Shown here piece by piece: positions 4,771-26,784 of a stretch of 39,888 nt of DNA (the stretch's first letter is position 1; each line of letters opens with the position of its first letter). Position numbers and translations under genes: made by a program. The stretch spans positions 574-40,461 of the forward strand of contig JADFYN010000007.1 of the NCBI GenBank assembly GCA_015233055.1, read 5' to 3'. Source of the DNA: Deltaproteobacteria bacterium. Its GTDB lineage: Bacteria; Desulfobacterota; JADFXK01. Under the pieces are notes generated by a model that was not told where the DNA came from, searched no databases, and was given only the letters and a program-made list of their open reading frames with translations.

Positions 4771-6192
4771 TTACCAGCCGCGCATCAGGTAATCGTGAAT
4801 CGAGTTAGCGGCCAGGCGGCCGGCCCCCATGGCCAGGATGACGGTGGCGGAACCGGTCACAATGTCGCCGCCGGCCCAAACCCCTTTCAGGGCCGTTTTC
4901 CCGGTCTTGGGATCAGCATCGATATAGCCCCATTTATTCAGGGCGATGCCCGGCGTGGATGAGGTCAGCAGCGGATTTGGTCCGGCGCCTACCGCGATCA
5001 CGGCCAGGTCACAATCAAGAATGAATTCGGATCCCTTAATTATGACAGGGCGCCGCCGGCCGGAAGCATCGGGCTCACCGAGTTCCATCCGTTGACATTC
5101 CATGGCGGTCACCCGGCCCTTGTCGTCGGCAATGAACTTGGTCGGAGCCGTCAGGAACTGGAATTTCACTCCTTCTTCTTCGGCGTGATGAACTTCGGCG
5201 GCCCGGGCCGGCATCTCATCTCGCGAGCGGCGGTAAACGATGTGAACCTGATCCGCGCCCAAACGTAGGGCCGTCCGGGCCGAATCCATGGCCACATTGC
5301 CGCCGCCCAGGACAACCACCTGCTTGCCGATGACCACGGGGGTGTCATATTTGGGGAAGAGATAAGCCTTCATCAGGTTTGATCGGGTCAGGTACTCATT
5401 GGCTGAATAGACGCCAATGTAATTTTCGCCGGGAATACCTAAGAACTTAGGCAACCCTGCACCCACGGCCACAAAGATGGCGTCAAACCCCTCCTCGAAC
5501 AATTCATCGACGGTGATGCTCCGGCCCACCACGGTATTGCATTCCAGTTTGACTCCCAGCCTTTCCAGGAAATTGACCTCAGAAAAAACGATCTCTTTGG
5601 GCAGCCGGAATTCGGGAATACCGTAAACCAGGACGCCTCCCGGTCTGTGGAAGGCTTCGAACATGGTCACCTCATGACCGCGTAAAATCAAGTCTCCGGC
5701 CACCGTTAAGCTGGCCGGGCCGGCGCCGACTACTGCTACCTTCTTGCCGGTCGGGGGCGCTTTTGGCGGCAACTCCGCAGTCCCACCCTTACGCGCCCAG
5801 TCAGCCGCAAACCGCTCCAGATTGCCGATAGCGACCGGTGCGTCCTTCTTACCCAAGACGCAGGACCCCTCACATTGAGCTTCTTGGGGACAGACCCGAC
5901 CGCAGACGGCCGGCAGGCTGTTTCTTTGCCAAATCTGGCGAATGCCTCCGAGGAAATCACCCTCCGCCATACATTTAATAAATTCCGGAATCTGAACATT
6001 GACCGGACATCCTTCGACACAAGAAGGCTTTTTGCATTGCAGACAACGAGACGCCTCCAATACAGCCGATTCCGCCGACAGCCCCAAAGGGACCTCTTCA
6101 AAATTTCTAGCCCTGACCTGCGGCTCTTGTTCCGGCATCGCTTGTCTGGGGACTTTATCTTTTTTAGGTTTATCTACTGGTTTGTCTGACAT
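4771..6192 (-). CDS. nfnB: NADPH-dependent glutamate synthase small-chain-like / NfnB (NfnL) large subunit of NADH-dependent ferredoxin:NADP+ oxidoreductase
   Basis: 473 aa. N-terminal Cys motifs (CLQCKKPSCVEGCPV, CGRVCPQEAQCEGSC), FAD and NAD(P) Rossmann motifs (VAVVGAGPASL, VVVLGGGNVAMDSARTALR). Adjacent to the nfnA-like gene. Confidence 0.88.
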   Translation of the reverse strand: MSDKPVDKPKKDKVPRQAMPEQEPQVRARNFEEVPLGLSAESAVLEASRCLQCKKPSCVEGCPVNVQIPEFIKCMAEGDFLGGIRQIWQRNSLPAVCGRVCPQEAQCEGSCVLGKKDAPVAIGNLERFAADWARKGGTAELPPKAPPTGKKVAVVGAGPASLTVAGDLILRGHEVTMFEAFHRPGGVLVYGIPEFRLPKEIVFSEVNFLERLGVKLECNTVVGRSITVDELFEEGFDAIFVAVGAGLPKFLGIPGENYIGVYSANEYLTRSNLMKAYLFPKYDTPVVIGKQVVVLGGGNVAMDSARTALRLGADQVHIVYRRSRDEMPARAAEVHHAEEEGVKFQFLTAPTKFIADDKGRVTAMECQRMELGEPDASGRRRPVIIKGSEFILDCDLAVIAVGAGPNPLLTSSTPGIALNKWGYIDADPKTGKTALKGVWAGGDIVTGSATVILAMGAGRLAANSIHDYLMRGW

Positions 6193-6354
6193 CTTATTCT
6201 TTCCTCCATCACGGTTGCGTCCTTAAGCGCGTATATTCATCAACGTCCGGCACCCGGAGGCAACTTGACCATGGGCCAATCCGCCCCCCTTAGGTGTTCT
6301 CCGATTGGTTCTAAGCCGTTCTCCGGCTTTATCCAGAGAGAATAGACGGAAACT

Positions 6355-7200
6355 TCATCGGGTTCGGCAGGCGCATTCTTCCTTATACCGGGCCCAGGAT
6401 TTGGCCTCGTCTTCCCGATAGGCAGCCAACCGTTGGGTCAATTCGTCAAAATCGACCGTATGGCCGTCAAATTCCGGGCCGTCTACACAGGCAAACTGAG
6501 TCTTGCCGCCTACGGTGACCCGGCAACACCCACACATCCCGGTTCCGTCGACCATGATGGGATTGAGACTGACCATAGTCTTCACGCCGTACTCTTTGGT
6601 CAGCTTGGTTAGGAATTTCATCATCGGAACCGGTCCGATCCCAACGACCAGGTCGACTTTTTCAGGACCGGTCAAGTATCCTTTGAGAACGTCGGTCACG
6701 AAGCCGTGATGTCCGTATGAGCCGTCATCGGTACAGACCTTGAGGACATGGGATGCGGCCCTCATCTTGTCTTCCAAAATCAGGAGGTCTTTATTCCGGG
6801 CCCCGATAATGGCGATGACCTCATTGCCCGCTTCTTTCATGCCTCGGGTGATGGGATGCAGCACAGCCACGCCGGTCCCGCCGCCGACACAGGCAACCCG
6901 GCCGACTTTTTCAAGGTGGGTGGCTTTGCCCAAGGGTCCGATGACGTCCTGGTAAGACGCACCAACAGGCATATCGGCGAACATATGAGTCGATTTGCCG
7001 ACAACTTGATAAATGATAGTGATGGTGCCTCGTTTAGGATCGGAGTCGGCCATGGTCAAGGGAACGCGTTCTCCGGTTTCGTTGGCTTTAAGGATAACGA
7101 ACTGGCCCGGTTTGGCCTTCCCGGCAATCCGGGGGGCGCTGATTTCGTTAAGAACGACCGTCCCTTGAGCCAGGACCTCCTTATTCAAGATTTCATACAT
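6355..7200 (-). CDS. nfnA: Sulfide dehydrogenase/dihydroorotate dehydrogenase electron-transfer-subunit-like NfnA (NfnS)
   Basis: ORF 6355..7257; internal start MYEILNKEVLAQG at 7200 preceded by GGAGGTTGTT. C-terminal CGCCRVTVGGKTQFACVDGPEFDGHTVDFDEL [2Fe-2S] motif. Confidence 0.88.
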   Translation of the reverse strand: MYEILNKEVLAQGTVVLNEISAPRIAGKAKPGQFVILKANETGERVPLTMADSDPKRGTITIIYQVVGKSTHMFADMPVGASYQDVIGPLGKATHLEKVGRVACVGGGTGVAVLHPITRGMKEAGNEVIAIIGARNKDLLILEDKMRAASHVLKVCTDDGSYGHHGFVTDVLKGYLTGPEKVDLVVGIGPVPMMKFLTKLTKEYGVKTMVSLNPIMVDGTGMCGCCRVTVGGKTQFACVDGPEFDGHTVDFDELTQRLAAYREDEAKSWARYKEECACRTR

Positions 7201-7247
7201 AACAACCTCCATTGGACGTGGGTTAGTCGGAACCGAAAAACGAGGAG

Positions 7248-7277
7248 AATTTAGCATAATTCCTTTTTCCCTGTCAA
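7248..7277 (-). promoter_or_regulatory. Candidate sigma70-type promoter for nfnAB
   Basis: Minus strand TTGACA (7277-7272), N18, TAAATT (7253-7248). Confidence 0.45.
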
Positions 7278-7292
7278 AAGAAAATATTTATC

Positions 7293-7321
7293 TTGACTGG
7301 GAATTCAAAGTTTGCTATGGG
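7293..7321 (+). promoter_or_regulatory. Candidate sigma70-type promoter for fhs
   Basis: TTGACT-N17-TATGGG upstream of the fhs leader. Confidence 0.35.
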
Positions 7322-7487
7322 GGAGTCTTAATTATGTAGTCATTCTATAATATTCTCACCTATCCCGATATGATTAATATTTGCGGGACCGATAAAAGAA
7401 AATCCCAAACCTTGTTCTCATTAACCCCTTAGGGGTTATCCACTAAAAGGTGTTCAGTGATCGACCGTTAACTCCCGCCAATTCGGA

Positions 7488-7530
7488 TGCTTGTGCCATA
7501 TTCCCTTCCGGGCGTTGAATGGCACAAGCA
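7488..7530 (+). promoter_or_regulatory. Strong stem-loop in the fhs 5' leader
   Basis: TGCTTGTGCCAT (7488-7499) / ATGGCACAAGCA (7519-7530): 12-bp perfect stem with a 19-nt loop. Confidence 0.6.
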
Positions 7531-7615
7531 GATTCGTGCCGGGTGCCATTTCTTTTCGGGCGGCCGACCCTGGATGCTGATTGCCCAAAAAAATATTTTT
7601 AAGGAGGATTATTTA

Positions 7616-9379
7616 ATGGCTCTTGATCCAACCAAACATGCTGATTGGGAAATCGCAGAAGACGCAGAAAAGTCAATGAAGAAGGTCTATCAACTGGCTG
7701 AAGAGCTGGGCCTGACCCAAGACGAACTTATTCCTCACGGCCACTATGTAGCCAAAGTGGATTTTGCTAAGGTTCTGGATCGGTTGAAGGACAAACCAGA
7801 TGCCAAATACATCGACGTGACGGCTATCACCCCCACCCCCCTGGGCGAAGGCAAAAGCACCTCCTCCATGGGCTTGATCGAAGGCATGGGCAAAAGAGGC
7901 CTGAAGGTCATCGGCGCCATCCGGCAACCATCGGGCGGCCCCACCATGAACATTAAAGGATCTGCGGCAGGCGGCGGTTTGGCCCAATGCGTTCCTCTGA
8001 CCCCCTTCTCTTTAGGCCTGACCGGCGACATCAACGCCATCATGAATGCGCACAACCTGGGCATGGTCGCCATGACCTCCCGGATGCAACACGAATTCAA
8101 TTACAATGACGCCCAGATGGCCAAACGCGGTTTGCGTCGCCTGGATATGGATCCCCGCAACGTGGAAATGGGCTGGATCATCGACTTCTGCGCCCAATCC
8201 TTAAGAAACATCATCATCGGTCTCGGCGGCAAGATGGACGGCCTCATGATGCAGTCTAAGTTCGGCATCGCCGTTTCCTCCGAGATTATGGCTATCCTGG
8301 CCGTGTCCACCAGCTTGAAAGACATGCGGGAAAGAATGGGCAAGATCGTCGTCGCCTACTCCAAGGCGGGCGACCCGGTCACCACTTCCGATCTCGACGT
8401 AGCCGGCGCCATGACTGCCTGGATGGTCGAGGCTCTGAACCCCAACCTGCTGCAAACCATCGAAGGACAGCCGGTATTCGTCCACGCCGGTCCTTTCGCC
8501 AATATCGCCATTGGTCAGTCCTCCATCGTCGCCGACAGAGTCGCCTTGAAACTGGCTGACTATCATGTCACCGAAAGCGGCTTCGGCGCCGACATCGGCT
8601 TTGAGAAGTTCTGGAACTTGAAGTGCCGTTATTCCGGCTTGAAGCCCCACTGCGCCGTGATCGTGGCCACCATCCGCGCCCTGAAGTGCCATGGCGGCGG
8701 GCCCAGAGTCGTCCCCGGCCAACCCATGGATCCGGCCTACAAAGAAGAAAACGTCGGCTTGGTCGATAAAGGCTGCGCCAACCTGGTTCACCACATCAAC
8801 ACCGTCCGTAAAGCCGGCATCAACCCGGTGGTCTGCATCAACGCCTTCTACACGGATACCAAAGACGAAATCGCTGTGGTTAAGAAACACGCTGAAGCCG
8901 CCGGCGCCCGCGTGGCCGTGTCCAAACACTGGGAAAAAGGTGGCGACGGCGCCCTGGAATTTGCCGACGCGGTTGTTGACGCCTGTAACGACAAGACCGA
9001 TTTCAAGTTCCTGTACGACCTGTCCATGCCCTTAAGAGACCGCATCGCCTTGATCTGTAAAGAAGTTTACGGTGGCGAAGGCGTGGAATACTCCCCCGAG
9101 GCTTTGGCTAAGGCCCAAAAAATTGAGAAGGACCCCGTCTTGTCTCAACTGGGCACCTGCATGGTCAAGACCCACCTGAGCCTGTCTGCTGACCCGACGA
9201 TCAAAGGCGTGCCGAAGGGCTTTAAGCTGTTCGTCCGTGACATCCTGACCTACGGTGGAGCCGGCTTTGTCGTGCCCGTCGCCGGAGCCATCAGCCTGAT
9301 GCCCGGAACCGCTTCCGACCCGGCCTATCGCCGCATCGATGTCGACGTGGAAACAGGAAAAGTCAAGGGCGTGTTCTAA
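7616..9379 (+). CDS. fhs: Formate--tetrahydrofolate ligase
   Basis: ORF 7487..9379; the ATG at 7616 ([18 protein letters not shown]) is preceded by AAGGAGGATT. Contains [20 protein letters not shown] and [19 protein letters not shown]. Confidence 0.97.
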
Positions 9380-9559: not shown

Positions 9560-9683
9560 GGAAATAAATGAAGCCGGGTCTGGGGGGGGACCCGGCTTGC
9601 AGAAAGGAGGAAAGATGATCTTAACTTAATGGAGGTTTATTAATTTTATTATAACCCGCTTAGGGATTTTTTGTTGCCTTGCC
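9560..9683 (-). ncRNA. Putative sigma54-dependent small RNA 'B' (paralog of sRNA A)
   Basis: Starts at the predicted +1 of a sigma54 promoter with GGCAAG; contains AUCUUUCCUCCUUUCUG (anti-SD). Ends in AAGCCGGGUCCCCCCCCAGACCCGGCUU hairpin (9571-9598) followed by a U-rich CAUUUAUUU tail. Confidence 0.65.
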
Positions 9684-9693
9684 TTTTTTAATA

Positions 9694-9709
9694 TGCAATT
9701 TACTTGCCA
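9694..9709 (-). promoter_or_regulatory. Sigma54 promoter (-24/-12) of sRNA B
   Basis: Minus-strand TGGCAAGTAAATTGCA versus consensus TGGCACGNNNNTTGCW: single deviation (C6->A). Confidence 0.78.
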
Positions 9710-9800: not shown

Positions 9801-9884
9801 AATAAAAAAGCCGGACTACCAAAGGCAGCAACCGGCTTCTTTATAAGGAGAAAAGAGTTATGAAACGGGGGGGGTAAAGCTTGC
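9801..9884 (-). ncRNA. Putative sigma54-dependent small RNA 'A'
   Basis: Minus strand GGCAAGCUUUACCCCCCCCGUUUCAUAACUCUUUUCUCCUUAUAAAGAAGCCGGUUGCUGCCUUUGGUAGUCCGGCUUUUUUAUU: starts at the predicted +1, ends in a hairpin plus U6. Confidence 0.72.
9803..9838 (-). terminator. Rho-independent terminator of sRNA A
   Basis: AAGCCGG...CUGCC-UUU-GGUAG...CCGGCUU followed by U-rich tail on the minus strand. Confidence 0.75.
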
Positions 9885-9894
9885 CTTCTTATGA

Positions 9895-9910
9895 TGCAAT
9901 TAGCTTGCCA
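9895..9910 (-). promoter_or_regulatory. Sigma54 promoter (-24/-12) of sRNA A
   Basis: Minus-strand TGGCAAGCTAATTGCA: same single deviation from consensus as the promoter at 9694-9709. Confidence 0.78.
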
Positions 9911-10064: not shown

Positions 10065-10190
10065 GTAAAAAAAATTATACACACCTGTCCTAAACCGTCC
10101 TCACCACCAGGTTAACATATTAAAAACACGCAACATATAGTTCAGTACAAAAAACTTTACATCAATCCGCTAATGTAAAAAAAACTTTAC
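10065..10190. promoter_or_regulatory. Triplicated 16-nt site, candidate enhancer-binding (UAS) cluster
   Basis: GTAAAAAAAATTATAC (10065-10080), GTACAAAAAACTTTAC (10145-10160), GTAAAAAAAACTTTAC (10175-10190). The third is a perfect GTAAA-N6-TTTAC inverted repeat. Confidence 0.6.
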
Positions 10191-10300: not shown

Positions 10301-11677
10301 TTAACTTAGTGAAATATTGTATTTTTTTATCTTATACCCCATTAGGCCGCGGGAAATTCCCAAGGCCTCGGCCGCCTGTGACTGGACGAACTTAGCTTTT
10401 TTTAAGGCATTACGGATCATCATCTCTTCCATCTGCTCCAGGGCATCCTGAAGTTTGGTATGCGGAGCCAGTAATTGATCAATAGCAGATTCTCCCCGGG
10501 TTTTATCCTGGAATTCCTCAGGGAGGTCAACCACAGTCAACTCCGACCCGCCACAGAGGATCACCGCCCGCTCGATCACATGCTCCAGCTCACGCACATT
10601 GCCCGGCCAATCGTATTCATAAATTCTTCTTAACGCTTCGGGTGAGATGCTATAGACGCTTTTGTTTTCATCCATCGCGTATTTTTTAATGAAATGATTA
10701 ACCAGTAACAATATATCGTCAGGACGATCCCTTAAAGGGGGCACAACTATATGAACTACGTTCAACCGATAAAAAAGATCCTCCCGGAAAGTTCCTTTTT
10801 TAATCAAGGTTCTCAGGTCCTTATTTGATGCTGCGACAATCCGGACATCGACTTTCAGCGTTCGGGTACCACCCACCCGTTCAAACTCCATCTCTTGCAA
10901 AACCCGAAGCAATTTGACCTGGAGTTGAGTTGACATTTCACCAACTTCGTCGAGAAAGAGAGTGCCTTTGTCGGCCAACTCAAAACGGCCTTTTTTGCCG
11001 GCGATGGCTCCGGTGAAAGAGCCCTTTTCGTGTCCGAATAATTCGCTTTCCAGCAATGACTCCGTAAGTGCCGTGCAATTCACGGAAATGTAAGGTTTGT
11101 CACGCCGGCGACTGTTAAAATGGATTGACCGGGCGATAAGTTCCTTTCCCGTACCGGATTCACCGATGATCAGCACCGAGGCCTTGGTGTCGGCAACCTT
11201 CCGGATTAGTTCGTAGGTCTTCTGCATGGGCTTGCTCTTGCCCACCAGATTGTCAAACCCATATTTCTGACTCAGTTCTTCACTTAATAAGCGTTTTTCC
11301 TTGACCAGGGCGGACACCTCAAGAGCCTTGCCGACCCGTAACATCAACTCGTCATTACTATACCCGCCCTTGGTCAAATAGTCGTAAGCACCTTTCTTAA
11401 CCGCTTCGACCGCAGTATCGATGGTCCCGTCCGCGGTAAGTACGATGACCGGCAGACCGGGGTTCCTTTTCTTGGCTTCTTCTAAAAGCTGTAAACCGTC
11501 CATACCGGGCATTTTTAGATCGGTGATGACCAGATCAACTTCGTGTTCTTTAAGAACCTGCAAAGCCAGGATGCCGCTTTCCGCCGTCAAGATTTCATAA
11601 TCTCTCTCCTCTGAGAGAAGAGCTTCCAAATTGATTAGATAATTCTTTTCATCATCTACAACCAGGATGGTTTCCAT
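10301..11677 (-). CDS. NtrC-family sigma54-dependent response regulator
   Basis: 458 aa: receiver (VVDDEKNY...DLVITDLKMPGMDG), AAA+ Walker A GESGTGKE, sigma54-contact loop GSFTGA, C-terminal Fis-type HTH. Confidence 0.95.
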   Translation of the reverse strand: METILVVDDEKNYLINLEALLSEERDYEILTAESGILALQVLKEHEVDLVITDLKMPGMDGLQLLEEAKKRNPGLPVIVLTADGTIDTAVEAVKKGAYDYLTKGGYSNDELMLRVGKALEVSALVKEKRLLSEELSQKYGFDNLVGKSKPMQKTYELIRKVADTKASVLIIGESGTGKELIARSIHFNSRRRDKPYISVNCTALTESLLESELFGHEKGSFTGAIAGKKGRFELADKGTLFLDEVGEMSTQLQVKLLRVLQEMEFERVGGTRTLKVDVRIVAASNKDLRTLIKKGTFREDLFYRLNVVHIVVPPLRDRPDDILLLVNHFIKKYAMDENKSVYSISPEALRRIYEYDWPGNVRELEHVIERAVILCGGSELTVVDLPEEFQDKTRGESAIDQLLAPHTKLQDALEQMEEMMIRNALKKAKFVQSQAAEALGISRGLMGYKIKKYNISLS

Positions 11678-11717: not shown

Positions 11718-13205
11718 TTAAATTACCTGCTTAGGGATGCCGGCTTCACCGGGCAACTCGGCCAAAGGAAAGCTAATAATCACCTTTGTCCCCATGGGAG
11801 AAGATTCGGCGACCGGGCTTTGGAAATCAATGACTGCGGCATGGCTGTCCAGGATATTCTTAACAATGGACAGCCCCAGTCCGGTCCCCTTTTCTTTAGT
11901 AGTAAAAAAAGGGTCACAAATTCTCTTCATCATGTCCGGATCGATTCCTTCTCCGGTATCAGCAATGCACACTTCAAACAAGCTGTTCTGATTATCATTT
12001 TTGACGGTGGTGGTCACGTTGATCCGGCCACCTGAGGGCATGGCGGCCACGGAATTGTTAAAAATATTAAGAAACGCCCGATATAGCAGGTCCGAGTCCC
12101 CCATGATATTAACACCGCCACCAACATATTTCTTTTCAAGAATAATTTGTCTAAGATCCATTTCCGAAGCTAACTGAAACAGATTCTTATCCAAGACATT
12201 TTCGACGTTGCAGGGGGCCAGCCGTGGCGTTTGAGGCCGGGCAAAGTCCAGAAATTCCGTAACGATATTATTCAACCGCCTGGATTCTTCAACAATAACC
12301 TCGGCCAGCCGATTGTTTGGCTCGTACTTGTTCATCTTCTTACCAAGCAGTTCCGCCGTACTACGAATAATTCCCAGAGGCGTCCGAATCTCATGGGCGA
12401 CTCCGGCCACCATCCGCCCCAGACCGGCCAGGCGTTCGGCTTGATTAAGCTGCTCCTCTAATTTCTTACGTTCCTGTGATCTCCGTTCGATGATTGTCTC
12501 GCCTCGTTTCACGATTTGCCGCAACACGATGAAAACCATGATCATAATTCCAAGCGAAACGCCGGAAATCAGGTATTGATTCTTGACCACATCTTCATAC
12601 TCAGTGGACAAATCTTGGGTTATCTCGAAAACGCCCAGGATGGGTCCCGTCAAGCTATAAAAAGCTTTTTCGGCGCGTAACGGAATATATGTAATTAACT
12701 TCTTCTCCTGGACAACGGTGATGAAATCAAACCACATCGAGCCGCCTTTAGAGACCAGGCGAGATGAATGCCGCCCTTTCAACGCCACCTGATAATCAAG
12801 ACCACCCTTGTTTTCTTGACCAACCAGCGCCTTGTCGGTACTATAAACAATGCTCGCCTTTAAATCAAAAATCGTCACGCGATCAATATGAAAACTGTGA
12901 ATAGTGGCCCGGACAATATTATCGAGCCGTTCATATTGAACTTCCTCCCGGAGACTGATTTCCCCAAATTTGAACACAGTCGGAACAATAAACTGCAAAA
13001 AGACCTGATGGTTTAGATTTTCGGCCAAAAGTAGGGCATACCCTTCAGAACGTTCCAAAATGGAAATCCTGGCCCGATGGCTCAGAATCCAGGTCAAGAT
13101 AATGGCCCCCAGCATGATCACAATGAAGCTGGTGAAAGAAAAATACTTGACCAGGGCGAATGGTTTGACGGCATCGACGCCGACCTGTATCTTTGCAAAT
13201 CGCAT
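11718..13205 (-). CDS. Membrane-bound sensor histidine kinase with periplasmic sensor domain
   Basis: 495 aa: N-terminal TM segment, ~170 aa extracytoplasmic region, second TM, H-box GVAHEIRTPLGIIR, N/G boxes (DTGEGID, GTGLGLSIVK). Confidence 0.93.
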   Translation of the reverse strand: MRFAKIQVGVDAVKPFALVKYFSFTSFIVIMLGAIILTWILSHRARISILERSEGYALLLAENLNHQVFLQFIVPTVFKFGEISLREEVQYERLDNIVRATIHSFHIDRVTIFDLKASIVYSTDKALVGQENKGGLDYQVALKGRHSSRLVSKGGSMWFDFITVVQEKKLITYIPLRAEKAFYSLTGPILGVFEITQDLSTEYEDVVKNQYLISGVSLGIMIMVFIVLRQIVKRGETIIERRSQERKKLEEQLNQAERLAGLGRMVAGVAHEIRTPLGIIRSTAELLGKKMNKYEPNNRLAEVIVEESRRLNNIVTEFLDFARPQTPRLAPCNVENVLDKNLFQLASEMDLRQIILEKKYVGGGVNIMGDSDLLYRAFLNIFNNSVAAMPSGGRINVTTTVKNDNQNSLFEVCIADTGEGIDPDMMKRICDPFFTTKEKGTGLGLSIVKNILDSHAAVIDFQSPVAESSPMGTKVIISFPLAELPGEAGIPKQVI

Positions 13206-13501: not shown

Positions 13502-13529
13502 TTGACAAGATCAAATCTATGAATATACT
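13502..13529 (+). promoter_or_regulatory. Candidate sigma70 promoter of the porin-like gene
   Basis: TTGACA-N16-TATACT. Confidence 0.55.
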
Positions 13530-13607: not shown

Positions 13608-13633
13608 ACGCGGTGACCGGGGGGTCACCACGT
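13608..13633 (+). promoter_or_regulatory. Strong hairpin in the porin mRNA leader
   Basis: ACGCGGTGACC-GGGG-GGTCACCACGT (10 of 11 pairs). Confidence 0.5.
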
Positions 13634-13691
13634 AACGATACACCCCGGGGGGGGAAACATTAACTGAGATCAGTGAAAGGAGAAAAGGATT

Positions 13692-14972
13692 ATGAGAAGA
13701 GCTATTTGTATCATGGCCGTCCTGTTCGGGTTTGTTTTTTTATTGACCCAGCAGGTTATCGCTGATGACGTCCAGCCACCAGTCAAATCTTCGGCGGGTA
13801 AATCCCTAACCGATGTGCTCATGGAAAAGGGCGTTATTTCCAAAGATGAAGCTAAGGAAATTAAGAAGGACGAAGAAAAAGGCCTCAACCTGCCCAAAGG
13901 CTTGCAAGGAGTTTCGTTGGGCGGAACTTATTTTATCAATTATTTTATCCGGAACTATGACTCCGGCTCCAAAGCCAATGACAACGGGTTCTCTCTAGAC
14001 CGGGCTTACCTCACTTTGGGCAAGGAATTCACCCCCTGGTTCTCGACCCGAGCCACTGTTGACGTTACCTATGATAAAAAACGGGGCAGCACAGGTACCG
14101 ACGCCAGTGAAATCGGCTGGGAAGTCCGCATCAAGTATGCATACGGCCTGTTTGATTTCAAGAATCTATTCGGTATGGAAATGCTCGGCGACCAATTCCG
14201 GCTCCAGAGTGAAGTCGGCCTGGTCCACAACGCTTCCGATAACTATGACGACTCCCTTTGGCCATATCGGGTGGAAGGCAAAAACTTCCTGGATCGTCAC
14301 AACATCATGTCCACCTCCGACTACGGCGCCAACATGCACCTGACCTTAGGCGAGATGGACAAAGAATTTAAGGAAAGAGTTGAAAGCAAGTATGCCTCCC
14401 GTTGGGGCGGTGTGTATTTCGGTGTATACAACGGCGCCGGGTTTGACCGCAACGAACGGAACGACACCAAGTTCTTTGAAGGTCAACTCTGGATTCGGCC
14501 GCTCAACATGTTTGACTGGGGCAAAGGGATCCGGTTGGCAGCCCAATACGGCAACGGCGAAAGCGATGCTAAGTTTGCCGTCCCGGCCGGTTCTACTGCT
14601 TATCCCCAATGGAATATTCAGCTTTACACCGCGTCCTATCAACATGAGTTGTTTACCATCTTCGGTCAATACTACGCCGGGAAAGGCACCAAAACGAGCA
14701 CGGAAGAAAAGAACCGAACTGGCTGGGATGTGGCCGGTTTTGTTAAGATGCCCTTCTGGCCTTGCCTGCGCCTCTTTGCCAAATATGACGACTACACTCC
14801 CGATGACGACGCCAGAACCAGCGCCGAGGAAAAAACTCAAATATACGGTATTTCTTACGACTTAGCCAAGGGCTTGATGGTCTATACCGCTATGGAAAGA
14901 ACCAACTATGACCTCAAGAGCGCCGGTCCGGACACCAGTCTGTACCAGATGGGCCTCAAGGCTGAATTCTAA
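13692..14972 (+). CDS. Porin-like outer-membrane beta-barrel protein
   Basis: 426 aa with signal peptide (MRRAICIMAVLFGFVFLLTQQVIA), short N-terminal SLTDVLMEKGVISKDEAKEIKK segment, alternating aromatic beta-barrel pattern and C-terminal F (YQMGLKAEF). Confidence 0.85.
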   Translation: MRRAICIMAVLFGFVFLLTQQVIADDVQPPVKSSAGKSLTDVLMEKGVISKDEAKEIKKDEEKGLNLPKGLQGVSLGGTYFINYFIRNYDSGSKANDNGFSLDRAYLTLGKEFTPWFSTRATVDVTYDKKRGSTGTDASEIGWEVRIKYAYGLFDFKNLFGMEMLGDQFRLQSEVGLVHNASDNYDDSLWPYRVEGKNFLDRHNIMSTSDYGANMHLTLGEMDKEFKERVESKYASRWGGVYFGVYNGAGFDRNERNDTKFFEGQLWIRPLNMFDWGKGIRLAAQYGNGESDAKFAVPAGSTAYPQWNIQLYTASYQHELFTIFGQYYAGKGTKTSTEEKNRTGWDVAGFVKMPFWPCLRLFAKYDDYTPDDDARTSAEEKTQIYGISYDLAKGLMVYTAMERTNYDLKSAGPDTSLYQMGLKAEF

Positions 14973-15301: not shown

Positions 15302-16063
15302 TTAGAACGGAGAGCCGAAGGCCGCCTTGATCAGCTCTCGATTCAGCCGGGCAATGTTGGTGATCGAAATCTCTTTGGGACATACGGCTTCACATTCAGC
15401 CTCGTTGGAACAGGCGCCAAAGCCCAGTTCATCCATTTTCCGGATCATGGCCTGGACCCGTTTCGCCGCTTCAGGCCGTCCTTGAGGTAGCAGGGCCAAC
15501 TGCGACACCTTGGCGCCGACGAAGAGCATGGCCGAGGCATTGGGACAGGCCGCCACACAGGCGCCACAACCGATACAAGCGGCCGCATCCATGGCCAATT
15601 CCGCAGTTTCTTGAGAAATCAGAATAGCATTGGCTTCGGGAACCGCTCCGGTATTGGCCGATATATAGCCACCCGTCTGGATGAGTTGATCAAACGCGCT
15701 CCGGTCCACAGCCAGGTCTTTGATGACCTTAAATGCCCGAGAACGCCACGGTTCAATAACCAGGGTATCGCGGTCGGCAAAATGCCGCATGTGCAACTGG
15801 CACAAAGTCGTGGCTTTCTGGGGGCCGTGAGGCACGCCGTTCACCACTGACCCACACATACCACAGATACCTTCCCGACAGTCATGGTCAAAGGCAATCG
15901 GGTCTTTCCCTTCCACACTAAGCCGTTCATTGACCACATCCAGCATTTCTAAAAAGGACATGTCGGTTGAAATATCCTTCGCTTGATACGTCTCAAAGGC
16001 GCCTTTGGCCTCAGACCCCGGTTGGCGCCAGACCTTTAGCGTCAGGTTGATGGTCTTGCTCAC
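15302..16063 (-). CDS. sdhB: Succinate dehydrogenase/fumarate reductase iron-sulfur subunit
   Basis: 253 aa with [29 protein letters not shown] and [11 protein letters not shown] Fe-S motifs; 4-bp overlap with the flavoprotein gene. Confidence 0.95.
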
Positions 16064-17973
16064 TTGTAACTCCTTGTCGCCAGGTGGACGTTTTCAAAGG
16101 CCAACGGTTCCTTATGCAGCACAGGCTCCTTCCCTACCCCCTGGAATTCCCAGGCCGCCACGTAGCAATAGTTCTCGTCGTCTCGTTTGGCCTCGTGATC
16201 TTCGGTCTGGTAAGCCTCATTATAATGGCAGCCGCAAGATTCTTTCCGGTTCAGGGCATCATTCAGCATGAGTTCCCCGAATTCGAGAAAATCAGCCACC
16301 CGCCCGGCCCGCTCCAGGGTCTGGTTGAATTCGCCGGACGACCCGGTTACAGTTACGTTCTCCCAGAATTGTTGGCGAAGTTCCGGAATCATTTGCTTGG
16401 CCTTCAGCAAGCCGGCTTCGTTTCTGGCCATGCCGCAATATTCCCACAAAATCCGGCCTAGTTCCCGGTGAAAATCATCAACCGTCCGCTTCCCCTTGAT
16501 CGACAACAACTTAGTCACCTGGGTCGAAATTTCCTGAACCGCATCCTTAAAGGCAGGATGACTGTCTTTGACCTCGCCCAGCGGCATACCGGCCAGATAA
16601 CCACCGACAGTATAAGGAATAACGAAGTAACCGTCATTAAGCCCCTGCATCAAGGCGCTGGCCCCTAAGCGGTTGGCCCCATGGTCGGAAAAATTGGCCT
16701 CGCCCAGGACAAAAAGGCCCGGAATAGTAGACATAAGATTATAATCAACCCACAAGCCGCCCATAGCGTAATGGATAGCCGGGTAAATCATCATGGGCGT
16801 TTCATAGGGATTCTGACCGACTATCCGTTCATACATCTGGAACAGATTCCCGTATTTTTTATGGATGGTATCCCGGCCGTCCCGTTTGATGGCATCGGCG
16901 AAATCCAGGTAGACGGCCAGGCCGGTATCACTCACACCCATGCCCATATCACAGACATTCTTGGCGTTTCGGGAAGCCACATCGCGCGGCACCAGGTTCC
17001 CGAAGCTGGGATATCTCTCCTCCAGATAATAGAACCGCTCGGATTCCGGAATGCTGTCAGGAGACCTTTTGTCTCCTTTCTTTTTGGGCACCCAGACGCG
17101 GCCGTCGTTCCGAAGGCTTTCACTCATCAAAGTCAGTTTAGACTGGTAATCCCCATGCACCGGAATACAGGTGGGGTGGATTTGAGTAAAGCAGGGATTG
17201 GCGAACAACGCTCCTTTTTTGTGGACCCGCCAGGCTGCGGTGACGTTGGATCCCATGGCGTTGGTGGACAGGAAAAAGGCGTTTCCATAGCCTCCGGTAG
17301 CCATTACCACGGCATGGGCGGCATGGCATTCGATCTCCCCGGTGATCAGGTTACGGACCACGATCCCCCTGGCCCGGCCATCAACCATGACCAGATCAAG
17401 CATTTCCCGCCTCGGGAACATTTTGACTTTGCCATTGGCCACCTGCCGCATCATGGCACTGTAAGCACCCAGCAGCAACTGCTGACCGGTTTGCCCGCGA
17501 GCGTAAAAGGTTCGGGAAACCTGAGCGCCGCCAAAAGATCGATTAGCCAGCAAGCCGCCATAGTCTCGAGCAAAGGGGACTCCTTGAGCCACACACTGAT
17601 CGATAATATTGACGCTCAATTGGGCCAGTCGGTAGACATTGGCTTCCCTTGACCGGAAATCGCCTCCCTTGACCGTATCATAAAACAGGCGCCAGACGCT
17701 GTCCCCATCGTTGGTATAATTCTTGGCCGCGTTAATACCGCCCTGGGCGGCAATACTATGGGCCCGGCGAGGGCTGTCCTGGATACAGAAGGTTTTGACG
17801 TTGTAACCCAACTCGGCCAGGGAAGCCGAAGCCGAACCGCCGGCCAGGCCGGTGCCGACCACGATGATTTCATACTTTTTCTTGTTGGCCGGGTTGACCA
17901 GTTTTAATTCAAACCGGTGTTTATCCCACTTCTCTGGAAGCGGGCCGCCCGGAACTTTGGCATCAAGCTTCAT
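16060..17973 (-). CDS. sdhA: Succinate dehydrogenase/fumarate reductase flavoprotein subunit
   Basis: 637 aa; [59 protein letters not shown]. Confidence 0.96.
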
Positions 17974-18073
17974 AATATGACCTCATGACACTGACATAGA
18001 AAGGCGCGCCTCGCGGCCGGACGTCCCCAACCCGCTGAAACTTTGAGGACGATGTCGATCTGCGGGTACGCGT

Positions 18074-18712
18074 TTACGACAATGAAAGATAAATGGGCAG
18101 GCACCCGAAGCCGAATCCGACCAGCAGGCTAAAAACCAATCCGACCTTCTTGATAACCGGCATGTACTTGGGATGGTTGGCACCGATTGTCTGGAACGCA
18201 CTCCAAAAACCGTGTTTGACGTGAAAGGCCGCCGCAATCATGGCGATGAGGTAAAAAATCACATAACCCGGACTGGTAAAGGTAGTATGGACCAAATAAT
18301 AGACGTCCTTGCCACCGCGGTCGGCAAAATGGAAGGTGATCAGATGGATAATGATGAACACCAGGAGAAAAAGACCGGTATACGGCATAATCGCCGAACT
18401 CAGGGTTCGGCCTCCGGCATTCTTTTTCACGGCGTACCCCACCGGCCTGGCCGTCAGGTTCCCTATAAACAACCAGATACCAAAACAAATGTGACAGACG
18501 GCTAAGACCAATAATCCCAATTCAGCCATCAAGATCAAGGCGCCCAATGAATGTAGGGATTCCGCATACGACACAAAAGCCTTCGGGCCTTTAAAAATGG
18601 TCAGGTTCCCAGCCAGATGGGAAACCAGGAAAAGACAGAAACTCAAACCGGTCACAGCCATAATCAGTTTTTTCCCCACGGAACAAGTGAGGGTGCGGAT
18701 AATCCAGTTCAT
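18074..18712 (-). CDS. sdhC: Succinate dehydrogenase/fumarate reductase cytochrome b subunit (b558-type)
   Basis: 212 aa, about five TM segments with conserved His; directly upstream of sdhA. Confidence 0.9.
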   Translation of the reverse strand: MNWIIRTLTCSVGKKLIMAVTGLSFCLFLVSHLAGNLTIFKGPKAFVSYAESLHSLGALILMAELGLLVLAVCHICFGIWLFIGNLTARPVGYAVKKNAGGRTLSSAIMPYTGLFLLVFIIIHLITFHFADRGGKDVYYLVHTTFTSPGYVIFYLIAMIAAAFHVKHGFWSAFQTIGANHPKYMPVIKKVGLVFSLLVGFGFGCLPIYLSLS

Positions 18713-18759
18713 TTTGCCTCCGTGTGCAATCGCTTCATGATCTTACTTAAAAAAATGTC

Positions 18760-19335
18760 TTAGGCCTTTATTTCGTATATCTCCCGGCCGACTGCATAAA
18801 GATCCCGGCCACGGACGTCGTTAACCACCGTGGTCGGCATGTCTTTCACTTCCATCCGGCGGACGGCTTCAGGGCCCAGGTCTTCATAGGCAATGATCTC
18901 CACCTTCTTGATACATTTGGACAACAAAGCGCCCGCCCCACCAGTGGCGGTGAGATAGACGGCCTTATGTTTGACCATGGCCTCCCGGACCTCGTCAGCC
19001 CGTTTTCCTTTGCCCACCATGGCCTTAAGACCTTTGGCCAATAACCGGGGGGCATAAGCATCCATCCGGTATGCCGTGGTTGGGCCGGCCGCGCCGATTA
19101 CCCGGCCCGGTGACGCCGGAGACGGACCGACATAGTAAATCACCTGACCGGCTACGGCCATGGGCAACTCCTCGCCCCGGTCCAGCAGCTCCACCAAACG
19201 GCGATGGGCGGCATCCCGGCCGGTATAAATAATCCCGCTCAAGAAAACACGATCACCGATATTCAATTTGGCCACGTCGGCGTCGGTCAACGGTGTGGTC
19301 AGATAGTAGGTGACCGGTGTCAGCTCGGTACTCAA
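18760..19335 (-). CDS. Class I fumarate hydratase, C-terminal/beta subunit
   Basis: ORF 18760..19368; TTG start at 19335 (LSTELTPVTYYLTTPL) preceded by GGAGGTG and overlapping the upstream stop (TTGA). Contains AGPTTAYRMDAYAPRLL and GKGKR. Confidence 0.9.
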   Translation of the reverse strand: MSTELTPVTYYLTTPLTDADVAKLNIGDRVFLSGIIYTGRDAAHRRLVELLDRGEELPMAVAGQVIYYVGPSPASPGRVIGAAGPTTAYRMDAYAPRLLAKGLKAMVGKGKRADEVREAMVKHKAVYLTATGGAGALLSKCIKKVEIIAYEDLGPEAVRRMEVKDMPTTVVNDVRGRDLYAVGREIYEIKA

Positions 19336-20171
19336 AATGTCACCTCCAAATGGCGGTTGGCGTGGCACTGGATGTTAACCGCGACCGGAAAACTGGCAAT
19401 GTGGCAAGGCATCATCTCCAGGTGGACGTCCAGCGCCGTAGTCCGGCCCCCCAGACCTTGCGGTCCCCAGCCCAGGTTGTTTATTTTTTCCAAGAGTTCT
19501 TCTTCTATGGCCGCCAATTCCGGGTCCGGGTGTCTTTCCCCGACCTGTCTTAACAAAGCCCGCTTGGCCAGAAGCGGAGCCACCTCAAAGTTACCGCCGA
19601 TGCCCACGCCCACGATCATGGGCGGGCAAGGATTGGGCCCCGCATCTTTGACCGTCTGGATGACCAGTTCTTTGGCCCCGGCCAATCCCTTAGATGGAGG
19701 GAGCATAGCCAAACGACTCATATTTTCACTGCCCCCGCCCTTGGGGACTACCCAGAGGTGAACCTTATCCCCCGGAACCAGCCGAAGATGAATAATGGCC
19801 GGCGTATTGTCTCCGATGTTCTTTCGAGTAAAAGGATGGCAGGTGGATTTGCGCAGGTAGCCTTCCTGGTAGCCATCCCTGACTCCGTCATTAATCGCCT
19901 GAGAGAGATCGCCCCCGGTCAGATGCACCTCCTGCCCCAGGTCGACAAAGATGACCGACAGCCCGGTATCCTGGCACATGGGGATGCCTTCTTCCCTGGC
20001 GATCCGGGCATTCTCGATCAATTGATCCAGGATATCCCGGCCGACGGGAGAGGTTTCTTTTTCCTTGTAGCGGACAAAGGCGTCCAGGGTGTCCTGCCCC
20101 AATTCTCGATTGGCTTTAATGGACAAGTCTTTGACCGCGTTACGAATGGCCGTAACAGATATTTCTTTCAT
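19332..20171 (-). CDS. Class I fumarate hydratase, N-terminal/alpha subunit
   Basis: 279 aa; MCQDTGLSVIFVDLGQEV, PKGGGSENMSRLAMLPPSKG, NPCPPMIVGVGIGG. Confidence 0.93.
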   Translation of the reverse strand: MKEISVTAIRNAVKDLSIKANRELGQDTLDAFVRYKEKETSPVGRDILDQLIENARIAREEGIPMCQDTGLSVIFVDLGQEVHLTGGDLSQAINDGVRDGYQEGYLRKSTCHPFTRKNIGDNTPAIIHLRLVPGDKVHLWVVPKGGGSENMSRLAMLPPSKGLAGAKELVIQTVKDAGPNPCPPMIVGVGIGGNFEVAPLLAKRALLRQVGERHPDPELAAIEEELLEKINNLGWGPQGLGGRTTALDVHLEMMPCHIASFPVAVNIQCHANRHLEVTF

Positions 20172-23902: not shown

Positions 23903-25264
23903 TTATTTTAGGTTCTTTAGTTTGATCCGAAATTTTCCCCGGCTCAAACCCAACAGCTCGGCCGCCCGGGATTGGTTGTACATGCTCATCTTTAAGGCCT
24001 GCTCGATCAATCGCCTCTCAATTGCCTCTATATCAAGCCCCTCAGGGGGAATGGTCATGGATTCCTCGGCCATCGCCGGGCGGCCGGGTTTAGATCGGTT
24101 TTGGATAAATGACAGCACCTTTTCGTCTATCCGTCCGTCTGAAGACAAAATCGCTGCCCGCTCAATGGCGTTTTCCAATTCTCTCACATTGCCGGGCCAG
24201 GTGTGGTTGGTCAAGATGCGGCGCGATTCATCAGTCAAATATCCCTTAGGTCGAGCCTTGTCTTGGGTAAACTTCTTAACAAAATATTCAGCCAGCGGCA
24301 CGATGTCCGCCGGTCGTTCCCGCAACGGGGGAATATTAATAGGAAACACATTTATCCTGTAGAATAGATCCTCTCGGAATTGCCCGGCCGCCACCATGTC
24401 GGTCAGGTTCCTGTTTGTTGCGCAGACAACCCGAACATCAGTCCGCCGCGCTTTGGCCCCACCCACCCGTTCAAATTCCTTTTCCTGAAGCACCCGCAAG
24501 ACCTTAGCCTGGGCATTGGCATCTAAGTCGCCAATCTCATCTAGAAAAATAGTCCCGCCCTGAGCCAACTCAAACTTACCCGGCTTAGTCTTGTCGGCCC
24601 CGGTAAAGGCCCCTTTCTCGTGGCCGAACAATTCACTCTCCACCAGGTTGGGGCTGATTGCAGCACAGTTTATGGCCAACAAGGGTCGATTGGCCCGGGG
24701 GCTGTTAAAATGGATGGCCTTGGCAATAAGTTCTTTGCCCACCCCGCTCTCACCCAGAATCAAGGCCGTGGTGTCGGCACTTCTGGAAACCAGGGCGGCT
24801 TGTTTAAGGATTTCCAGCATATTCTCTGACATAGCAATAATATTAGAAAAATCAGCCCCTTTGGCTAATTCGTCCTTCCATATCCGCCTTTCTTCCGCCA
24901 GCCTGGAAAAGGCCATGCCGCGCCGCACGGCCACCAACACTCTTTCCTCATCAAAGGGTTGGGTAATATAATCCAAGGCCCCGGCTTGCATCGCCGACAC
25001 GGCTGAACTAACCGAACCAAAGGCCGTGATCAACACCACCGGCAAATCAGCGTCCTTGGCTTTGATGGCCTTGAGCAGTTCCATGCCATCCATCACCGGC
25101 ATCTTGATATCGGTGACCACCAGGCCGATTTCACCCCGTTCCAGCTTTTGCAATGCCTCGTGGCCATGCTCTGCCGTGTCCACTTCAAACCCATCCCCTT
25201 CCAGGATGATCTTGAGAATATGCCGCATCTTCTTTTCATCTTCGACCACCAGTACTTTGCTCAT
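23903..25264 (-). CDS. NtrC-family sigma54-dependent response regulator
   Basis: 453 aa; receiver VVEDEKKM, AAA+ GESGVGKE, GAFTGA loop, Fis-type HTH. Confidence 0.95.
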   Translation of the reverse strand: MSKVLVVEDEKKMRHILKIILEGDGFEVDTAEHGHEALQKLERGEIGLVVTDIKMPVMDGMELLKAIKAKDADLPVVLITAFGSVSSAVSAMQAGALDYITQPFDEERVLVAVRRGMAFSRLAEERRIWKDELAKGADFSNIIAMSENMLEILKQAALVSRSADTTALILGESGVGKELIAKAIHFNSPRANRPLLAINCAAISPNLVESELFGHEKGAFTGADKTKPGKFELAQGGTIFLDEIGDLDANAQAKVLRVLQEKEFERVGGAKARRTDVRVVCATNRNLTDMVAAGQFREDLFYRINVFPINIPPLRERPADIVPLAEYFVKKFTQDKARPKGYLTDESRRILTNHTWPGNVRELENAIERAAILSSDGRIDEKVLSFIQNRSKPGRPAMAEESMTIPPEGLDIEAIERRLIEQALKMSMYNQSRAAELLGLSRGKFRIKLKNLK

Positions 25265-26784
25265 AGGGACACCATTGTTTCCGGTTCAGGAATTACGTGA
25301 TGGATGTCCTCCATCGCCTGACCGTCTTCCTGATTGTTAGCTAAGGGTAACCTCAAAATAAATTTGGCCCCATGAGGATAATTTTGAGCGACCTCAATAG
25401 TCCCTTGATGGTAATCAACGACCTTTCTGACCAGGGCCAATCCCAAACCTGCCCCCTTCTCTTTAGTGGTAAAAAATGGATCGAAGATCTTCTCCGTCAA
25501 CTCCGGCGACAACCCGGCCCCGGTGTCCGCAAACGAGATCGTGGCCTGACCGTCTTCATGAAACACCTTAATGGTGACCCGGCCCTTTTCTCCGGTAATG
25601 GCCTGGTAGGCATTATACATTAAATTCACCACGGCCTGGGTCAACGCCCCCCGGTCACCCATGACCAGGCAGGGCTCGCCTTCTGCCTCTACATTCAGGT
25701 CAATGGTCCGGCCTTCGTCCGTCACCGGAAAAACCATCGCGGCGACCTGGTCCAGTATAAAGTTCAGGTCCACCGGCTTCCATTCCTTCGGGCCGGGGCG
25801 AGAAAAAGCCAAGAATTCCTCAACCATATGGTTGAGCCTTTTAACCTCGTCCGTGATGTATTCAGCCATGGTCAGGCGCAACGGAGCATCTTCCTTATGT
25901 TTCAACAGGATACCCAAAGAACCGTGAATAATGCCCAGGGAATTCTTTAGCTCGTGGGCGATGACCGAGGAGAAGCGGCCCAATTCAGCCATTTTCTCTT
26001 TTTCCATCAACCGCTGGTACGTCTCCCGGAGTTCCCTTTCTTTCATGATCAAGGCATCGACCATCCGATTAAAAGACATGGTCAGCCGACCCACTTCGTC
26101 CCGACTGGAGACATTTAGGCTGCTGATCCAGTGGCCGTCAGCGATTTCAGAAGTAGCCCGGGCCAGTCTGACGACCGGTCTGAGCATCAACCTAGCCACC
26201 CAAAAGGCCGCCAGGCCAAAAATAACACCCACCGACGCCGCCAGATATAGAATTTTGAGCCGGAGACGACTTAACGCGTCCAAGACCTCAGCCTTGGAAA
26301 AGGTCACTTCGACGGACCCCAGAACTTTTGAAGAATTATGGGGCGGATTATTCGCGGTGATGTTTCGGTCAGCGTTATCGCCCTCAAAAAACAAATTTAT
26401 TCTATCAGTTACCTCACCTTTAGTGGGTCGCATGGTCACCGAGCGAACAATTTTTCTTCTTGGTTCTTGAGCCTTGGCGAAAGAGCCTTTTTGCTCCAGC
26501 AACACATCTCCCTGGTTGTCAAGGATCCGGACCTCAATGACATCTCCTTCACGGGCCAAATTTTCAGCCAAAGGAGCAATCAGGGATTTATTGCCGATTA
26601 ACAACCCCAGTTCCGCATTCAAGGCCAGATTCGTCACTAATGCTTCACCCCTTTTTTCGAATTCAGCACTTAAGACGGCTTCCGAATGATGCAGCACCAG
26701 GGCCGTATAAATGGCCGACAAAATCAAAGTCATCACAACTACCCCGAGCGATGTTTTTATGGTTAGACTCAAGCCTTTAATCAT
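25261..26784 (-). CDS. Sensor histidine kinase (HAMP + HisKA + HATPase)
   Basis: 507 aa; two TM segments, HAMP-like RPVVRLARATSEIADG, H-box VIAHELKNSLGIIHG, DTGAGLS, GAGLGLALVRK; ATGA overlap with the regulator. Confidence 0.93.
   Translation of the reverse strand: MIKGLSLTIKTSLGVVVMTLILSAIYTALVLHHSEAVLSAEFEKRGEALVTNLALNAELGLLIGNKSLIAPLAENLAREGDVIEVRILDNQGDVLLEQKGSFAKAQEPRRKIVRSVTMRPTKGEVTDRINLFFEGDNADRNITANNPPHNSSKVLGSVEVTFSKAEVLDALSRLRLKILYLAASVGVIFGLAAFWVARLMLRPVVRLARATSEIADGHWISSLNVSSRDEVGRLTMSFNRMVDALIMKERELRETYQRLMEKEKMAELGRFSSVIAHELKNSLGIIHGSLGILLKHKEDAPLRLTMAEYITDEVKRLNHMVEEFLAFSRPGPKEWKPVDLNFILDQVAAMVFPVTDEGRTIDLNVEAEGEPCLVMGDRGALTQAVVNLMYNAYQAITGEKGRVTIKVFHEDGQATISFADTGAGLSPELTEKIFDPFFTTKEKGAGLGLALVRKVVDYHQGTIEVAQNYPHGAKFILRLPLANNQEDGQAMEDIHHVIPEPETMVSL

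Follow-up and report, generated by a model that had tools for sequence, protein, structure and literature searches.

A histidine kinase and its σ54-dependent response regulator likely activate two small RNA genes in this deltaproteobacterial locus, and one of these RNAs, sRNA A, likely blocks translation of the porin gene encoded next door, with a contact between C8 and G8 tracts probably helping. At the center of this proposal lies a 21-nt duplex that the minus-strand transcript of positions 9845-9865 can form with the porin mRNA at 13677-13697, comprising 18 Watson-Crick pairs, two G-U wobbles (at 13688 and 13696) and one C/A mismatch (at 13689), with a predicted energy of -24.0 kcal/mol. 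The plus-strand letters read AAGGAGAAAAGAGTTATGAAA at the sRNA locus and AAGGAGAAAAGGATTATGAGA at the porin; the preliminary description had given both with the right coordinates, and the duplex that it had proposed over the Shine-Dalgarno sequence (SD) and the AUG was confirmed from the letters. Judging from this pairing, the porin is very probably switched off by sRNA A, much as porins are by the porin-silencing RNAs of Escherichia coli.

The sRNA genes and their regulatory neighborhood

Within the window (the whole 39,888-nt stretch analyzed), the gene order is FTHFS, sRNA B, sRNA A, σ54 response regulator, histidine kinase, porin and sdhBA. The only informative relative for comparison was the MAG G002 (contig JADFYC010000067.1), and the features relevant to the proposed circuit are as follows.

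9562..9683, minus strand: sRNA B, about 122 nt, with two anti-SD motifs and a terminator with a C8 loop (promoter, terminator, conservation)
9582..9589, minus strand: C8 in the terminator loop of sRNA B (sequence and fold)
9694..9709, minus strand: σ54 promoter of sRNA B, TGGCAAGtaaaTTGCA (0 mismatches)
9801..9884, minus strand: sRNA A, about 84 nt, whose 5' domain carries C8 and anti-RBS, is unpaired and precedes a terminator (fold, promoter, conservation)
9845..9865, minus strand: anti-RBS segment of sRNA A, UUUCAUAACUCUUUUCUCCUU (9865 down to 9845), pairing with the porin and identical in G002
9867..9874, minus strand: C8 tract of sRNA A, kept in G002
9895..9910, minus strand: σ54 promoter of sRNA A, TGGCAAGctaaTTGCA (0 mismatches)
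10065-10080, 10145-10160 and 10175-10190: three GTAAA-N6-TTTAC-like inverted repeats, putative enhancer sites (motif)
10301..11677, minus strand: σ54-dependent response regulator of the AtoC/NtrC type, presumed to activate the sRNAs (sequence)
11718..13205, minus strand: membrane histidine kinase partner (sequence)
13502..13529, plus strand: porin promoter, σ70-type TTGACA-N16-TATACT (11/12 match, unchanged in G002)
13612..13656, plus strand: porin leader hairpins GGTGACC(GGGG)GGTCACC and CCCC(GGGG)GGGG (fold, comparison with G002)
13647..13654, plus strand: G8 tract of the porin leader, complementary to C8 of both sRNAs and kept in G002
13677..13697, plus strand: porin mRNA target site complementary to sRNA A (SD, start codon, codons 2-3)
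13692..14972, plus strand: porin gene (426 aa, signal peptide, C-terminal Phe, weak Porin_4 match)

Both sRNAs look like real genes, because they have perfect σ54 promoters, terminators and a conservation above that of the spacers. Only two perfect -24/-12 elements (GG-N10-GC spacing) occur in the window, one before each sRNA, and counting 12 bases on from these elements places the predicted starts at 9884 for sRNA A and 9683 for sRNA B. In the fold of sRNA A (-24.2 kcal/mol, z -4.3), an open 5' domain of 40 nt precedes a stable terminator; the fold of sRNA B is not unusual overall (z -1.6) and ends in a 3' terminator with a C-rich loop. Upstream of the sRNA A start, at a distance of 181-306 bp, are the three inverted-repeat sites; no others of their kind occur in the window. 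RpoN is present in the genus.

In the mechanism that we propose, the histidine kinase would respond to a signal by phosphorylating the response regulator (10301-11677), which would bind the three inverted-repeat sites (10065-10190) and activate both σ54 promoters. With its 5' domain unpaired, sRNA A would then pair over 21 nt with the SD, the start codon and the first codons of the porin, so that ribosome binding would be blocked and the porin repressed. It would probably also repress an OmpA/Pal-like lipoprotein encoded elsewhere, and pairing of C8, in both sRNAs, with the leader's G8 tract would probably contribute a further contact.

Ranking of the porin among possible targets

How readily could such a match arise by chance? 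When the 21-mer was searched as a pattern in the assembly (4.05 Mb, 79.65% complete), with G-U pairs and up to two mismatches tolerated, 10 matches were returned; its reversed control gave 12, and by number alone the matches are therefore chance-like. The sRNA locus itself excepted, the porin was the only one-mismatch match at a start codon in the whole assembly; the remaining one-mismatch matches are G-rich and lack a start codon (one, L010, was read, and the other, L009, was judged from its matched letters). Two further real starts, belonging to a CheY-like protein and to an OmpA/Pal-like lipoprotein with a PKD domain, matched with two mismatches each. Under a position-independent model built on 390 SD-bearing starts, the probability of at most one mismatch is 4e-5 per gene, or 0.16 expected genes per 4000, and dinucleotide-shuffled queries reached the porin duplex energy in 3 of 2000 trials and that of the OmpA-like gene in none. 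A match like that of the porin is thus moderately improbable if it may fall anywhere in the genome, and highly improbable if it must fall on sRNA A's own neighbor.

We then ranked 519 gene starts, called by a simple script in 678 kb of the assembly, by the sum of duplex and opening energy. Many genes with equal or better energies, an outcome considered in the preliminary description, were not found: the porin came first (-19.4 kcal/mol), in line with the pattern search of the assembly, followed by the OmpA/Pal-like lipoprotein (-18.1 kcal/mol) and EF-Tu (-15.9 kcal/mol). The second rank is not blind, since contig C444 was added to the ranking only once the pattern search had pointed to its OmpA-like gene. 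The match to this gene extends over its AUG, and its leader is almost unchanged in G002, where the full-length copy has, by eye, an OmpA-type C-terminus; the lipoprotein is a probable second target of sRNA A. Its leader (L017:1440-1520) also carries a G6 run, and its RBS is nearly identical to that of the porin.

For sRNA B, the target search gave nothing convincing. The preliminary description had listed a shorter match to the porin (8 and 4 nt), whose letters are correct; at the RBS, however, it is weak, ranking only 24th of 519 by duplex energy, and sRNA B is, as far as predicted pairing goes, not a good RBS blocker of the porin. If it contacts the porin mRNA, it more likely does so through its C8 terminator loop on the G8 tract. 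Both of its anti-SD motifs, AAACCUCCAUUAA and AUCUUUCCUCCUUUCU, are conserved.

These rankings bear on two other readings of the data. It is tempting to see in sRNAs A and B broad anti-Shine-Dalgarno RNAs that damp many mRNAs, the porin being one of them and the pairing of its AUG luck: a strong SD of any mRNA can pair with the CU-rich UCUCCUU and CCUCC motifs, no target stands out for sRNA B, and EF-Tu is third for sRNA A. We nevertheless hold this to be improbable, given that the porin match spans SD, spacer, AUG and codons 2-3, an event of about 4e-5 per gene that falls on the neighbor, and that the OmpA/Pal-like match covers the AUG as well. Alternatively, both RNAs might exist while the porin goes unregulated, strong A-rich RBSs simply being alike, and with up to two mismatches about 1.8 genes would indeed be expected by chance against the 3 real starts observed. 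That the best match is the neighbor, together with the coincidence of the G8 and C8 tracts and the conserved synteny, makes such an accident a rather remote prospect in our judgment.

A possible second contact in the porin leader

The G8 tract of the porin leader is conserved and lies about 25 nt before the SD. Runs of at least eight G or C are rare, with 8 in 368 kb (about 1 per 46 kb), and three of these eight are those of sRNA A, sRNA B and the porin leader, all unchanged in length in G002. This pattern suggests a second contact of C8 with the leader G8, similar to that of RepG. The C8-G8 duplexes are predicted at about -23 kcal/mol, against a cost of about 8.5 kcal/mol for opening the G8 region. 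Since other leaders score equally well or better for C8 once accessibility is included, we put the contact forward as a hypothesis. Read 5' to 3', C8 precedes the anti-RBS just as G8 precedes the RBS; with this parallel order, a single continuous duplex formed by one sRNA molecule could not include both contacts.

Could the C8-G8 contact nonetheless be the chief mode of action, as in RepG, with the anti-RBS match secondary? The tracts in both sRNAs and the leader, their constant length in two genomes despite the rarity of such runs and the strong predicted duplex speak for it. However, G8 is partly locked in the CCCC(GGGG)GGGG hairpin, C8 does as well or better on other leaders when accessibility is counted, and distant porins have no G8 near the SD, so we regard this order of importance as possible but unlikely. 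Similarly doubtful is a more ambitious version of the circuit, in which kinase, regulator, two sRNAs and porin would form a self-contained sensory one-locus unit, addressing one leader in two separate codes (sRNA A through its anti-RBS, sRNAs A and B through C8 on the G8 loops) and working free of Hfq thanks to the GC-rich contact. Finally, the plus strand might be the functional one, given that an RBS, an ATG and a short ORF are found there at both places (MKRGG and MILT), as a mirror of leader peptides; the σ54 promoters and terminators sit on the minus strand and the second ATG is lost in G002, which leaves this reading barely credible. We thus favor repression of the porin through the RBS duplex with sRNA A, probably assisted by C8.

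Conservation and relation to known systems

Identity to G002 amounts to 94% for sRNA A, 96% for sRNA B, 86-89% for the promoters and 58-80% for the spacers; the synteny of the locus is kept, and the stretch from C8 through the anti-RBS of sRNA A is unchanged. The porin RBS of G002 has one extra mismatch (ATT to ACT), which weakens the duplex to -21.3 kcal/mol compared with -24.0, and the sRNA shows no compensating change. In G001 (67% complete), no match to the sRNAs, the porin or the OmpA-like gene was found. A search of 297 genomes of the phylum for a σ54 element with C5 and TCTCCTT returned only the two genus members, apart from two matches that look like chance (one of them, L018, was inspected). 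Porin homologues are present in 51 of 395 genomes; for the 18 homologues whose upstream DNA was read (approximately 1.5 kb), both the σ54 signature and a G8 near the SD were missing, and the circuit therefore seems limited to the genus. Among solved structures, the porin has no relative by sequence.

Most known examples of porin control by sRNAs come from bacteria that have Hfq and σE. MicA, MicF and RybB are small RNAs with an unpaired seed and a terminator that pair at the 5' region of porin or OmpA mRNAs, and MicA, RybB and VrrA are under σE control. Like MicA, MicF and RybB, sRNA A has a predicted pairing with the RBS and 5' coding region of an outer membrane protein mRNA. The repression of this type that the preliminary description had proposed is supported as a mechanism by the target ranking, the promoter, the terminator, the unpaired 5' domain and conservation, but it does not extend to family kinship: an Rfam search, models of MicA, MicF and RybB included, gave no match to either sRNA at gathering scores. 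Unlike MicA, RybB and VrrA, the sRNAs described here are preceded by σ54 promoters, adjoin a two-component system and match no Rfam family; a search for Hfq in three incomplete genomes of the genus (G000-G002) found none, while the same search detects it in control genomes. VrrA of Vibrio represses ompA through the 5' region of its mRNA and does not stringently require Hfq (PMC2628432). In this genus, trans-acting sRNAs seem present although Hfq was not detected in these three incomplete genomes.

In E. coli, GlmY with QseE/QseF (GlrK/GlrR) has a σ54 promoter, adjoins the response regulator genes and is preceded by three activating sites (PMC6075780). Likewise, the sRNAs described here have σ54 -24/-12 promoters, as expected of the GlmY and Qrr type of sRNA, adjoin regulator genes and have three putative upstream sites; unlike GlmY, they show no sequence similarity to it by Rfam. 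To our knowledge, GlmY does not pair with a porin RBS. The position beside a response regulator is shared with Dv_sRNA2 of Desulfovibrio vulgaris, which lies just downstream of, and is targeted by, the response regulator DVU0679 (PMC3333781), a likeness of gene arrangement. In Helicobacter pylori, RepG targets a homopolymeric G tract in the tlpB leader with a C-rich terminator loop (PMC8295292), and the C-rich terminator loop of sRNA B is similarly complementary to the porin leader G8, a predicted contact. Unlike the length-variable tract of tlpB, G8 is short and of the same length in both genomes compared, only two in number, and here sRNA A would make a second contact, at the RBS.

An uncultured deltaproteobacterial lineage thus seems to reach the porin-silencing solution under a σ54 two-component system. 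Because the target is a neighboring gene, a single locus would let one follow the path from signal through regulator and sRNA to target. This arrangement also offers a candidate function for orphan sRNAs behind response regulators in sulfate reducers, such as Dv_sRNA2. Elsewhere in the window, we observed a second AtoC/NtrC-like σ54 response regulator with its histidine kinase (23903-26784), a pair resembling NADPH-dependent glutamate synthase/sulfide dehydrogenase (NfnAB-like) followed by formate-tetrahydrofolate ligase (4771-9379), and succinate dehydrogenase/fumarate reductase with fumarase (15302-20171).
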